Source of the DNA: Acidobacteriota bacterium
GTDB lineage: Bacteria > Acidobacteriota > Blastocatellia > HR10
Reading direction: 5' to 3'
Assembly: GCA_030550025.1 (NCBI GenBank)
Contig: JAUQQC010000014.1
Coordinates: forward strand, 1-63,596
DNA: 63,596 nt
Every line of letters begins with the position of its first letter. Within the stretch, counting starts at the first letter, position 1. The position numbers were made by a program, and so were the translations under genes. Below the pieces are notes generated by a model. That model made no database searches and was not told the DNA's origin. It saw nothing but the letters and a program-made list of their open reading frames with translations. Positions 43,993 through 48,799 of this stretch are shown here, in pieces.

Positions 43993-45728
43993 ACGCGCCC
44001 CCTTTCTGAAGCCCGGCGCTCCCTGCGCTCGCCCGTGGGCTCGGACGACTCCCGATGCCGAAGCAGAAGAAGCCGAACGCGTGGATCGGAGAACGGAAAC
44101 CTGCGGTCGGAGACCACCACCCATCCATCGCGCTCCACCTCGAGCGCTCCCATGCTGGAGAACAAAGGCGACCGATAGTCGAGCACGATCCACACGCGAG
44201 CACCCCGCGCCTGCCGCAGTCGATCGCGAAGCGACAAAAGAGGAAGATCGCCCAGAGGCAGTACGCGTGGGATCGGTGTCCCGCGCAACTCGTATCGCAA
44301 ACACCGATCCATGTATCCGGGATCAACCAAGATCGACTCCCCTTCCCGCCACTCCTGCCGCAACACCGCGGCCACGGGCCGATAGTCGCTGTCAAAGGCG
44401 GGTGCACGATAATGCGCCTTCAGACCGAGGAGCATCGACACGCTCAACAACCCGACCGCAACCCCGCGCTTCCACGCGGCGCGAAGGCTCGTGGCCCCCG
44501 CCGCGAGCAACAAAAAGTAATACGGCGTGATCGGCATGAGATAGCGCCCGAAGTCCATGTATTGCCGAATGACGAAAAGCACACCGCAGATCAATCCCAC
44601 GGGGATGAAAAAGAGCACCTGCAACAACCCGGCTCCTGCCTCCGCTCGCATCCCTTTCCAGAGAAGGAAGACCCCGAGTCCGATGGCGAGCGGATAGAGC
44701 GAGAGATTCTCCAAAGCCCGTAAGAGCATCTCCGCATTCCACCGGTACTCGACGAGGTTCTTCATGGCATAGAAAACTCCCTGGGGATACACGAACGAAC
44801 CGACCACCATCTTCCCACTAAAGAGGAAGAACTCTCCAACCAACATGAGGCCATCCAGCGGCGGACGCCATCCCTGTCGAGGACGCGAAAAGATTTGATA
44901 GATGAACGTCGTCAACCACGGCGTATACAGCAAAATGAGCCCGAGCTGCCAGAGTCCCCACCGTCGCACGAAATACCAGGGAGACTGAGGAAGCTCACCC
45001 CGACGAGCCCGGCGCACGAGCAAGCCCAGGAAATGCAAGTTCACCGCCGCGAGCACAAGCGCCCCGAAGACGTGCGTGTAGAGCGCGAGTGCGCCCGAGA
45101 GCATGTAGCCAAGCGCCCCTCGGAGATCCACGCGCGCCACTCCCCTCTCGCGAGACCACGCCGAGGCATCGAGGCCGCGAAGGACTTCCGTCGCCCCCGG
45201 CTCTTGCACATTTACAAGCAAGCCTTCCCGGCGAAGGAACCGAATGTAAGCGAGAACAGCCCCCAATGTGAGGACGCTCACCAGCGCGTACATCCGCGCT
45301 TCCTGAGCGTAGAAGACTTGATGCGGGGAGAGCGCTAACAAAAATGCCGCCAGAAGCGCCGCCTGATGAGAGAGAATCTGCCGCCCCAGCCAATATGCTC
45401 CCGCAACAAGCCCGACGCTTGCGAGAAGCGAAGGGGTACGCAAGGCGGACACGCTCTCGCCGAAAAACGTCGTCCAGAGCTTCAAAACGAGATGCAAAAA
45501 CGGCGGATGGATGTTGCTCCGCCCTTCTTCGAGGATGAACCGGATCGGCTGCTGCGAGACATACCAAGACCACGCTTCGTCAAACCACAGGTTCCGCGTC
45601 CCAAGATGATGCCAGCGGAGAATAAGGGCGAGCAGAACAACGAACCAGAATCCCACTGCCGAGAGATTGAGCCGCCTCCGATGAGGCGTTTTTTGCCCAG
45701 CGCGCGCCAGAACGGTTTGCCTCGTCAT
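43989..45728 (-). CDS. ArnT/PMT-like GT39-family membrane glycosyltransferase
   Basis: A 579-residue protein with about 12 membrane helices. The first external loop carries the catalytic Asp-Glu in RNLWFDEAWSW and the later NIHPPFLH and FYAQEARMYAL typical of lipid-phosphate-sugar-dependent glycosyltransferases of the GT39/GT83 group. It would move a sugar from a polyprenyl carrier to a protein or lipid on the outer face of the inner membrane. The ATG at 45728 is chosen because a promoter (45756-45785) lies within the longer frame. The promoter is formed by a repeat element. It overlaps the dehydrogenase gene by four bases. Confidence 0.85.
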   Translation of the reverse strand: MTRQTVLARAGQKTPHRRRLNLSAVGFWFVVLLALILRWHHLGTRNLWFDEAWSWYVSQQPIRFILEEGRSNIHPPFLHLVLKLWTTFFGESVSALRTPSLLASVGLVAGAYWLGRQILSHQAALLAAFLLALSPHQVFYAQEARMYALVSVLTLGAVLAYIRFLRREGLLVNVQEPGATEVLRGLDASAWSRERGVARVDLRGALGYMLSGALALYTHVFGALVLAAVNLHFLGLLVRRARRGELPQSPWYFVRRWGLWQLGLILLYTPWLTTFIYQIFSRPRQGWRPPLDGLMLVGEFFLFSGKMVVGSFVYPQGVFYAMKNLVEYRWNAEMLLRALENLSLYPLAIGLGVFLLWKGMRAEAGAGLLQVLFFIPVGLICGVLFVIRQYMDFGRYLMPITPYYFLLLAAGATSLRAAWKRGVAVGLLSVSMLLGLKAHYRAPAFDSDYRPVAAVLRQEWREGESILVDPGYMDRCLRYELRGTPIPRVLPLGDLPLLSLRDRLRQARGARVWIVLDYRSPLFSSMGALEVERDGWVVVSDRRFPFSDPRVRLLLLRHRESSEPTGERRERRASERGRV

Positions 45729-45746
45729 TGTCCACCCACGGATATT

Positions 45747-45824
45747 CACCTCCGCATTATGCGAATCTCCCTGGCCACTTTTCAAGGTGGAAGGAGGGGG
45801 CGAAGATCTTTCGATCTTCCTACC
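45747..45824 (+). repeat. Imperfect repeat, copy A
   Basis: The core GCATTATGCG with GGCCAC about 14 bases later and a GATCTTTCGATCTTCC tail matches copies B (45975-46071) and C (48073-48155) in the same orientation. The similarity is partial, with conserved blocks separated by variable bases. The pattern resembles ends of an IS21-like element, but no transposase is present. The family assignment is inference. Confidence 0.5.
45756..45785 (-). promoter_or_regulatory. Promoter inside repeat A reading toward the GT39 gene
   Basis: On the minus strand TTGAAA (45785-45780), an 18-base spacer and CATAAT (45761-45756). Transcription would start near 45749, 21 bases before the GT39 ATG. The CATAAT box is part of the conserved repeat core. 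Confidence 0.5.
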
Positions 45825-45974
45825 AATTTATGTCTGTCCGCGCGCAACTCCCAGGAAGGCACGATCCCCTACATTCATTCCTCATTCCGAGCGAGACGAG
45901 AAAAGGCAACGGAAGTGGAGCTCTATGAGAGAGAATTCAGGTCGGACGAGATCCTGAAGGGGATACATCGGATT

Positions 45975-46071
45975 AATCTTCGACATTATGCGGACGTCCA
46001 TGGCCGGCCACCTTTTAAGTTTTGGAAGGACGCGACGGCGATCTGCCGGCCTTCCCATCTTTCGATTCGCG
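45975..46071 (+). repeat. Imperfect repeat, copy B
   Basis: Shares CATTATGCGGACGT with copy C, GGCCAC shortly after, and the tail CTTCCCATC..TCGATTC. It has a few extra bases between blocks. It lies about 60 bp upstream of the Cys-rich peptide promoter. Confidence 0.5.
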
Positions 46072-46093
46072 TTGATCCCCTCTAGTTTGGGGG

Positions 46094-46127
46094 CATAAGA
46101 TTTGCTTATGCAAGTATTTTTTTTTTC
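46094..46127 (+). terminator. Rho-independent terminator directly upstream of the Cys-rich peptide promoter
   Basis: GCATAAG (46094-46100), a five-base loop and CTTATGC (46106-46112) form a perfect 7-bp stem, followed by AAGTA and ten T residues (46118-46127). It would stop read-through into the peptide gene. The perfect dyad might also serve as a regulator site, as the promoter starts four bases later. Confidence 0.65.
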
Positions 46128-46130
46128 ATT

Positions 46131-46158
46131 TGACATTCCGAGCGGGTTTCATAGACTA
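46131..46158 (+). promoter_or_regulatory. Strong sigma-70-like promoter for the Cys-rich peptide gene
   Basis: A perfect TTGACA (46131-46136), a 16-base spacer and TAGACT (46153-46158). Transcription would start near 46165, only about 18 bases before the ATG. Confidence 0.65.
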
Positions 46159-46182
46159 GTGAGGTGAAGGAGGTGAAGAAGG

Positions 46183-46578
46183 ATGAAAGGATTCCAGTGC
46201 ATCGTGATGCTACTGTCCTTGGTCCCTTTATGGGGATTCCAGTCTCCCGCGAGAGACCCATTAGGACTTGGTGCCTGGACTCCAACGTTCACGGGCACGC
46301 CGTGGTACGAAGGCAGGAACCTGAGCACGCAGAATCCTTCCCAAAGAAACGTCTCGGTAGGCGCTTGCACTCTCGTAGGAGTTCATGGACCCATCTGGCG
46401 TTGTGATGGAAGGCGCATAGAAGAGCACTGGTGTACGGCATGTCTTGAGTACCTGCCTACCTGTGTAGGCTGGTGCCTCTTTTGGTGCGAATGTAAATGG
46501 ACTGCGGGATGGTACTGTGAAAATTCTACAAACCCTGTCTGGTGCCCTTATGGTGAGCATTGCTCCTTAATCGAATAA
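46183..46578 (+). CDS. Small secreted Cys/Trp-rich protein of unknown function
   Basis: A 131-residue protein not recognised as a known family. A signal peptide covers about residues 1-20 (basic start, then IVMLLSLVPLWGF). Residues 60-131 are packed with 11 cysteines (62, 74, 84, 87, 94, 98, 102, 104, 112, 121, 127) and many tryptophans, including CVGWCLFWCECKW, suggesting a disulfide-knotted exported domain. Residues 21-60 form a Pro/Thr/Asn-rich linker. AAGGAGGTGA precedes the ATG and a strong promoter lies just upstream. A propeller gene follows 68 bp later with an equally strong ribosome binding site. The layout recalls the NVEALA peptide plus propeller pairs of Bacteroidota, but the sequence is not obviously homologous. 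Codon use is more AT-rich than in neighbours, which suggests transfer. Confidence 0.75.
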   Translation: MKGFQCIVMLLSLVPLWGFQSPARDPLGLGAWTPTFTGTPWYEGRNLSTQNPSQRNVSVGACTLVGVHGPIWRCDGRRIEEHWCTACLEYLPTCVGWCLFWCECKWTAGWYCENSTNPVWCPYGEHCSLIE

Positions 46579-46646
46579 CAGGGGTGGTTGGGGGAATCAC
46601 TCGGCTCACGGTACTTGCCAAACAGATGAAAAGGAGGTTTTGAGCA

Positions 46647-47771
46647 ATGACTAAATGGATCATCGGATCGCTCTTGGCCATACTTTCCGCACTGAGCGTT
46701 AACTTGGTCGTGGCTTGGATCTCAGCGGAGCCTAGCCCGAAGGAACCCATCCGTAACTCCGGGGTGCCGGCTCGGGTGCTGGAGCCAATCTTCAGCGCTG
46801 ACTTCGCTCAACGCATCGAGTTAAAGAAACTGAATAAGCCTGTAACCATAGCCAGCGTGGCCGCTGATCAGCATGGTAACGTGTACCTACTCTCATGGGA
46901 TTATTCTGCTCCTAAGGGGATGGGGTGTAGTATCCAAAAGCTCGCTGCCGATGGGACTTTCCTGGACACCATACGCCTGACGCATGAGATATGGGAACCA
47001 CCAGTGGAGGCGTCCGCTCTGGCTGTCGGGAAGGATGGGACGCTCTACGTGGCCGTTGAATGGCCGATCCGGCGAGGAGGATTAATTGCAGTGGATGACA
47101 ACGGGAATCTAGTCTCCAAATTGGTGTTCCGGGATTTCATTCCCCACAAATTGGCCGTAGACGACCACGGTCAAGTGTGGGTATTAGGGGAGGAGATTGA
47201 TCCCATAAAAGCCGCTTTGGAGCGCAGCTACATTCCCGTTAATCCCGTAGAAGGCGAGCAACTTCGAGTTTATAGCCCTGACCTCAAGCATTCGGTCATC
47301 CTTGTGCGGGGTGAAAAAGAGGGCATACTTCCTTCCACGCTTAAGAGCACGGGAGATGAGATCGTCTACTACGCGAGTGGGACGAACGCGATTCGGGTGT
47401 TTCGCCAAGGACAACTCGTGCGAAAATTGACGCTCCCGGCGTTGACCCCTCTTACGCCCCCGGAGGAGGTGCTGCGCGGTGGATTTAAGACGCTGAGGTT
47501 CATAACAGGAGTTTACAAAATTGGCGATCGCTTTCTCGTGGCGGGATTTTACAATTACAAGCCAACGGCCAGGAGTGGTGGCGTGCTGACCGGGATATCG
47601 CGGAATTTCATCGCCCTCGTGAGCCAGGATGGTGAGGCCGCTTCGCCGGAATTTGAGCCGCCTGACAATGTCTCACTCGCGAATTACTCAGACGGGCATT
47701 TCATTGCATTCTCAGGTTCGAGAACCAGAGGGACGTTCCTCATCATGAAGTTAAAGCCGGCGATTCGATGA
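46647..47771 (+). CDS. Secreted six-bladed beta-propeller-like protein
   Basis: A 374-residue protein with an N-terminal membrane or signal segment (WIIGSLLAILSALSVNLVVAW). Repeated blade-like segments follow: ADQHGNVYLLSWDY (about residue 72), VGKDGTLYVAVEW (about 130), VDDHGQVWVLGEE (about 172), then more degenerate blades to the end. These are NHL/6-bladed propeller type, which act as binding scaffolds. No catalytic motif is visible. AAAAGGAGGTTTTGAGCA precedes the ATG. It is almost certainly co-transcribed with the Cys-rich protein gene. A decayed paralogue of its C-terminal part lies at 48265-48380. The gene is less GC-rich than the surroundings. Confidence 0.78.
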   Translation: MTKWIIGSLLAILSALSVNLVVAWISAEPSPKEPIRNSGVPARVLEPIFSADFAQRIELKKLNKPVTIASVAADQHGNVYLLSWDYSAPKGMGCSIQKLAADGTFLDTIRLTHEIWEPPVEASALAVGKDGTLYVAVEWPIRRGGLIAVDDNGNLVSKLVFRDFIPHKLAVDDHGQVWVLGEEIDPIKAALERSYIPVNPVEGEQLRVYSPDLKHSVILVRGEKEGILPSTLKSTGDEIVYYASGTNAIRVFRQGQLVRKLTLPALTPLTPPEEVLRGGFKTLRFITGVYKIGDRFLVAGFYNYKPTARSGGVLTGISRNFIALVSQDGEAASPEFEPPDNVSLANYSDGHFIAFSGSRTRGTFLIMKLKPAIR

Positions 47772-47889
47772 AGATCTTGAGGTCGTACTCGTTTAAAGAA
47801 GATCGCCCTGGGCGGCCGGCAAGCGAGCCCGGCTGGCAGGAGTCAAGAGTCGCTGATAGCAGGGGAGTTAAGGCGAAGCCCTCCATGCC

Positions 47890-47952
47890 CCGGAGCCGTT
47901 GATGGAGTGGGCACCGTCTATGTAGCGGATCTTCTGAACAGCCGGGTAGGGG
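47890..47952 (+). pseudogene. Fragment of an NHL propeller blade
   Basis: One frame reads AVDGVGTVYVADLLNSRV, a nearly ideal NHL blade, but it has no start, no continuing blades and soon loses propeller character. It probably belongs to the same decayed gene as the relic at 48265-48380. Confidence 0.55.
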
Positions 47953-48072
47953 CGAGCAAAAGGATGAACCACGCTCCCTCTGCCGAAAGATCGAGCCCAT
48001 TCCCATTGAGGTCTTCCTCGCGCAACACGTATCAGAACACTTCGCGTCGTCTCGCCTACCACCCGATGATCC

Positions 48073-48155
48073 TCACCTTCGCATTATGCGGACGTTCCCG
48101 GCCACTTTGAAAAATACGGTCGAGATCCGTTGACTTTCCCATCGCTCGATTCCCG
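48073..48155 (+). repeat. Imperfect repeat, copy C
   Basis: Contains CTTCGCATTATGCGGACGTT, then GGCCACTTT, and a tail CTTTCCCATC..TCGATTC shared with copy B. It lies between the two parts of the decayed propeller gene, as if an element had inserted there. Confidence 0.5.
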
Positions 48156-48264
48156 CTTGCCCCCGTGCGGTCCGACGACTATGAAGGATCGCGAGTACAG
48201 CTAATGATCCGCGTGGATTTCATCAACTCCGAAAGAAGGATGATTCATCGCCTTCGGGGGGGCG

Positions 48265-48380
48265 GGTGGTGAGGCGCCCCCTGAATTCAAACCGTCCGGG
48301 AATGTCGCAATCCGCACTTCCCGGCGTTCTCAAGATCCGAGACAAAGGGGATGTCGTCGTGAAGTTGAGGCCGACGATTC
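48265..48380 (+). pseudogene. Decayed copy of the C-terminal part of the beta-propeller gene
   Basis: Three successive segments in three different frames match the end of the intact propeller protein. GGEAPPEFKPSGNVAI corresponds to DGEAASPEFEPPDNVSL, HFPAFSRSETKG to HFIAFSGSRTRG, and VVVKLRPTIR to LIMKLKPAIR. The first segment is followed by a deletion of about 20 bases. Frameshifts between the segments show it is no longer coding. It indicates that the locus once held two propeller genes. Confidence 0.7.
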
Positions 48381-48389
48381 GATCGAATC

Positions 48390-48753: not shown

Positions 48754-48799
48754 AAGGGCCATTATCCGCTGCTCACGGATAATGGCCCTTTCGATTTTT
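48754..48799 (+). terminator. Attenuator terminator before cimA
   Basis: A perfect 15-bp stem (48754-48768 with 48776-48790, arm AAGGGCCATTATCCG), a seven-base loop, then TCGA and five T residues (48795-48799). It lies 33 bases before the cimA start and 24 bases after the leader stop. Confidence 0.85.

Follow-up and report, generated by a model that had tools for sequence, protein, structure and literature searches.

Layout of the locus

The window (the whole 63,596-nucleotide stretch of DNA that was analyzed) carries a gene for a small secreted protein rich in cysteine and tryptophan followed, after 68 bases, by a beta-propeller gene, both at the place given in the initial annotation (Table 1). 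Genes were called as open frames, with hydropathy as the criterion for signal peptides. The strong Shine-Dalgarno sites ascribed to both genes, AAGGAGGT and AAGGAGGTT, could be read from the sequence. The small protein has a short hydrophobic start, a variable linker and a C-terminal domain dense in Cys and Trp (approximately residues 62–131); of its 12 cysteines one lies inside the signal-like segment, leaving the 11 counted earlier. Its cysteine pattern had been described as outside recognized families, in agreement with which no Pfam match was obtained at E-values up to 10. A PDB sequence search returned no relative of this protein or of the propeller. When modeled with AlphaFold2 from an alignment of three sequences, the small protein reached a pLDDT of 34.5, too low for a usable model. 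The propeller, which has a hydrophobic N-terminal segment by hydropathy, was modeled with a pLDDT of 71.3 and a pTM of 0.74. Foldseek searches with this model gave 462 PDB matches at E-values up to 0.001, with NHL domains on top and modest TM-scores (0.45–0.59), and the predicted structure is that of an NHL-type beta-propeller. A PADLOC scan gave no match to known defence systems, and the sole match in a PHROGs scan was a generic propeller hit.

Table 1 Coordinates of the cysteine-rich protein–propeller pair and associated features in the window.
Feature	Position	Strand	Length	Basis
Hairpin and T-run, 5' of promoter	46093..46111	+		Pattern scan; conserved in HRbin10
Sigma-70-like promoter, TTGACA-16-TAGACT	46130..46157	+		Pattern scan; conservation in HRbin10
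Shine-Dalgarno of Cys-rich gene, AAGGAGGT	46167..46174	+		Read from sequence
Cys/Trp-rich secreted protein gene	46183..46578	+	131 aa	Orthologues in HRbin08 and HRbin10
Shine-Dalgarno of propeller gene, AAGGAGGTT	46631..46639	+		Read from sequence
NHL-like beta-propeller gene (secreted or membrane-anchored)	46647..47771	+	374 aa	AlphaFold2 and Foldseek
Decayed copy, 5' end of neighbouring glycosyltransferase gene (original 45623–45781)	47947..48108	.		Direct repeats, blastn
Decayed copy, propeller C-terminal end (original 47607–47769)	48244..48383	+		Direct repeats, tblastn

A promoter and an insulating terminator had also been claimed for the pair. Both patterns are present and conserved in the relative HRbin10, where TTGACA and the −10 region of the promoter and the GCATAA..TTATGC..AGTATTTTTT string of the hairpin and T-run are kept; as bare patterns, however, they occur near chance (promoters, 4 observed vs 1.8 expected; terminators, 2 observed vs 3.5 expected), and no evident plus-strand gene reads into the putative terminator. 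The AT-richer composition of the pair was confirmed, as GC content is 0.50–0.56 over positions 45750–48250 and 0.60–0.67 in most of the flanks, with the DNA of the pair 6–10 points below most of them. Downstream, the decayed copy of the glycosyltransferase start retains 75–78% identity as direct repeats (70.6% by blastn) and that of the propeller end 78–83%, the latter also being matched by the HRbin08 propeller (tblastn, E 0.041). A 22-base element, CATTATGCG..GGCC, occurs in three intergenic copies around the pair (45755–45776, 45984–46005 and 48082–48103), which are either duplication remnants or a repeated regulatory element. Separately, positions 48754–48790 contain a perfect inverted repeat of 15 bp and, after it, a T-rich stretch, just upstream of a cimA-like gene (48832); the sequence preceding cimA is conserved in both HRbin08 and HRbin10.

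The island in related genomes

A single-query scan of contigs gave no match; an alignment-based scan led to one Blastocatellia MAG and two bins from hot springs, HRbin08 and HRbin10, all of them relatives that agree with the Acidobacteriota host proposed initially. Whole-genome searches located the Cys-rich and propeller genes next to each other in HRbin08 and HRbin10, which are congeners. Both carry a longer island at the same site, between a GT39-type glycosyltransferase and cimA (the names GT39, cimA, PDZ and TPP are our own presumptive reading of the neighbour proteins), which includes ABC transporter genes along with genes for a small PDZ protein and a second secreted protein with 14 cysteines. 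In HRbin10 the island further encodes two ABC-2 permeases, a redoxin-propeller accompanied by a 10-Cys peptide, and a propeller accompanied by an 18-Cys protein. Two other congeners have no island, and GT39 and cimA are directly adjacent there. The island in the window is a reduced version, followed by the decayed duplicate of the GT39 start and propeller end. The earlier statement that no dedicated exporter adjoins the pair is accurate within the window but does not extend to the HRbin08 and HRbin10 islands, given their ABC transporter genes.

Across the three species (window, HRbin08 and HRbin10), the Cys/Trp-rich proteins share 41–61% identity, and the 10 core cysteines of the mature domain are invariant, Cys62 being the variable eleventh, as are Trp72, 83, 101, 106 and 120 of the C-terminal domain. 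The dN/dS ratio was 0.26–0.32 for the Cys/Trp-rich gene and 0.21–0.36 for the propeller gene. Since both frames are conserved at these ratios, both genes are, judged by such comparisons, real and under purifying selection rather than chance frames. Synonymous divergence (dS) between HRbin08 and HRbin10 was lowest in cimA and the TPP enzyme (0.19 in both), followed by GT39 (0.25) and by the PDZ gene and ABC ATPase (0.27–0.30); it rose to 0.47 in the 14-Cys gene, 0.62 in the propeller and 1.67 in the Cys gene. Sliding DNA identity was correspondingly 93–97% in the flank, ~75% in the propeller and 51–57% in the Cys gene. Within its locus the pair evidently diverges fastest, and the Cys gene more so than the propeller. 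Such elevated dS values are better accounted for by replacement of alleles or by duplicates lost differentially than by positive selection alone, and dN/dS values of 0.2–0.36 show constraint, not positive selection.

In searches of genomes, the phylum and viral contigs, the family of the window Cys protein was restricted to this genus. Among 396 genomes of the phylum the window alone was positive, and viral contigs gave no match. The two best weak matches in the phylum set had no Cys-rich frame on inspection, and the other two contained internal stops.

Recurrence and diversity of the pairing

The check proposed in the initial annotation was whether small Cys-rich genes repeatedly stand beside propellers in other genomes, and they clearly do. 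Among 20 full-length propellers, from a sample of few genomes that are mostly draft bins, the Cys-rich companion was open in 14 (with an unclear signal in one, G008 C49), broken in four and absent in two (G414 and G344), against 0/139 unrelated long frames with a Cys-rich secreted neighbour. Under a fixed rule (same strand, 60–250 aa, at least 7 Cys, a signal-like start, close by), a qualifying neighbour was present at 8/13 propellers vs 2/141 other long frames, both of these background positives being themselves propeller-linked; the rule was drawn up after the first examples were known, so the contrast with the background matters more than the exact fraction. While a propeller profile recovered relatives within the order, a wider profile reached propellers in a different family of the class and in a genome elsewhere in the phylum (another class), each with a Cys-rich frame beside it. 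The window's own genome has a second pair (G000:C22), one of the two background positives, in which a 10-Cys protein lies just upstream of a 326-aa propeller; pairs of this type also occur in HRbin08, and their companions are broken in HRbin10 and in another genus. A literature search on propellers with cysteine-rich proteins in Acidobacteria, on NVEALA, and on the names HRbin08 and HRbin10 returned nothing.

About eight dissimilar Cys patterns can be distinguished among the companions, and profile comparison of two companion families detected no similarity. None of the companions scanned against Pfam and NCBIfam passed any model's cut-off. Most clades of the propeller tree contain one companion type, with some joins involving long branches. 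In HRbin10, a companion domain is fused to a C-terminal calcium-binding-like domain (LDRNGNG..ELFGN) with a weak match to a MopE metal motif, and in the genome G272 a similar calcium-binding-like protein is encoded as a separate third gene.

Four companions were broken beside open propellers (HR10 C14, TGA; G005 C94, TAG; HR08 C113, TGA; HR10 C22, deletion), and the reverse, a broken propeller with an intact companion, was not seen among the pairs examined; with four cases in draft genomes, this asymmetric decay is suggestive only. Single in-frame stops (TGA, TAG and TGA) were observed in the otherwise open companions of three genomes, at L066, L106 and L060, where the propellers are intact, and nonsense mutation is the simple reading. 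Selenocysteine was considered at these stops and rejected, as one is TAG and as the stops replace non-Cys positions where a relative aligns. A third propeller in the window's own genome (contig C23, L111:4856–5563) is internally shortened to 181 aa and preceded by a 45-aa signal-like remnant, this pair eroding on both sides.

Comparison with known systems and possible function

In Bacteroidota, NVEALA peptides are encoded beside genes for 6-bladed (BF3164/TolB-like) propellers, and a resemblance to these had been noted initially. It stands as an analogy of layout, both pairs combining a small exported Cys-containing protein with an adjoining exported propeller of the 6-bladed type, but is not accompanied by any profile match: the NVEALA profile (PF14055) had no match in the window protein and exceeded its cut-off in 0/158 genomes of the class, and the window propeller matched neither PF15869 (BF3164/TolB-like) nor PF17170 (DUF5128). 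The window protein further differs in having a Sec-type signal in place of the NVEALA leader and in belonging to a different phylum. Another system with a comparable arrangement, and a precedent for a propeller-like immunity protein, is that of the Pseudomonas effector Tse1, a type VI-delivered enzyme, and its periplasmic immunity protein Tsi1, a partial beta-propeller (PMC3391265). There, adjacent bicistronic genes are found, a periplasmic propeller-like protein binds its partner, and disulfides occur in both (PMC3391265). The two systems differ in that Tsi1 is only a partial propeller and that the small protein of the window has no known enzymatic domain.

Taken together, a two-gene system with an unrecognized Cys pattern is supported. 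Its genes are adjacent, co-oriented and co-conserved, and the pairs are accessory, locally diversifying and cognate, as would be expected of effectors and their immunity proteins. Because the pairs have these properties and the partner outlasts the small protein, effector plus immunity is the best fit, and of the roles listed in the initial annotation a toxin or antimicrobial with a binding partner probably fits best. We therefore favour, at a probability of about 0.38, an operon-like module of two cell-envelope proteins in which a diversifying effector would be matched by a cognate binding, probably immunity, propeller; the sequence features suggest a putative undescribed recognition system, for example a bacteriocin and its immunity protein. 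In such a system, Sec would move both proteins into the periplasm, where the small Cys-rich protein would fold with about five disulfides and be bound by its own propeller. The Cys-rich protein would then most likely be a disulfide-stabilized antibacterial or kin-recognition effector, and the propeller a cognate immunity or holding protein that protects the producer. Like other effector–immunity loci, this one would be accessory, duplicated and allele-replaced, with immunity outlasting the effector. A broader and more tentative proposal is a modular effector–immunity or self-recognition class, patchily distributed in Acidobacteriota, in which unrelated disulfide-rich proteins would be swapped beside a common neutralizing propeller scaffold. 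Counting against the effector reading, a Sec signal by itself takes the Cys-rich protein no further than the periplasm in a cell with two membranes, and the window shows no route for its release. High dS is also no proof of conflict, since replaced alleles or differentially lost duplicates can produce it.

Ranking close behind is a structural or adhesive pair, a possible though doubtful reading in which the Cys-rich protein would be a disulfide-hardened surface or matrix component in a bacterium of hot springs, the propeller a periplasmic or surface scaffold, and divergence an escape from phages or predators. The calcium-binding-like domain fused to the companion in HRbin10, or encoded as a third gene in G272, fits such a role, as do the PDZ protein and redoxin-propeller nearby in HRbin10; a scaffold would, on the other hand, less readily explain accessory genes restricted to a lineage, propellers that outlive their companion, or a single companion type in each propeller clade. 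A secreted or periplasmic signal sensed by a propeller receptor would suit the cognate pairing and the local diversification, but signalling is improbable, as a regulator, kinase and transcription factor are all absent from the conserved unit and the AlphaFold2 model of the propeller shows no cytoplasmic domain and a single N-terminal helix at most.

Methylamine dehydrogenase consists of a tryptophan-quinone light chain and a propeller heavy chain, and its MauA/MauB pair resembles the one described here in joining a small secreted Cys/Trp-rich protein to a secreted propeller. This likeness of anatomy and the five invariant Trp of the window family would suit a small catalytic subunit with a propeller subunit, as in that enzyme or quinohemoprotein amine dehydrogenase. 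Such a role is nonetheless very unlikely: PF02975 (MauA light chain) had no match in the window protein and none over cut-off in 12 genomes, the MauB heavy-chain family had no match in the window scan, neither protein has a PDB relative by sequence, no maturation genes were recognized in the island, and Trp is missing from the mature part of other companions, such as the 7-Cys one. Least credible of all is that the genes share no function and became neighbours by accident or as passengers on a mobile island: the island is indeed accessory and is being eroded, but the pairing is found again in about eight dissimilar forms, in separate places and in another class of the phylum, at 18/20 propellers vs 0/139 background frames.

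Few soil and hot-spring bacteria are less accessible than Acidobacteriota, and to our knowledge few antagonism or recognition systems of this kind are known in the phylum. If the propellers bind their own partners, Acidobacteriota would hold natural disulfide-rich mini-proteins with matched binders, several from thermophiles, as well as a shared scaffold whose binding specificity has diversified. Two small genes would also make a simple testable unit for bacterial antagonism or recognition.

Additional genes of the islands and related loci

The HRbin10 redoxin-propeller (L034:1172–3529) combines a Redoxin/TlpA-like domain with a DUF5128 propeller, matches PF17170, and has a 158-aa continuation in another frame (a possible frameshift). 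The 10-Cys peptide beside it (94 aa) matched TIGR04117, a family of radical SAM targets, below threshold, and a search for it across the class returned the self-match alone. HRbin08 encodes, beside ABC transporter genes, a 266-aa secreted protein (L032:13587–14387) with a hydrophobic Cys-rich C-terminus (CGFECIDC...CADCIDCLF); it had no match in Pfam, NCBIfam, PHROGs or PADLOC, and we take it to be reminiscent of halocin C8-type bacteriocins. In two distant genomes (L034:7257–8531 and L131:5403–6119), a Cys-rich protein and a C-terminal calcium-binding-like domain (LDRNGDG..ELFGN) occur beside propellers, the domain being joined to the Cys-rich companion part in one genome and the two being separate genes in the other.
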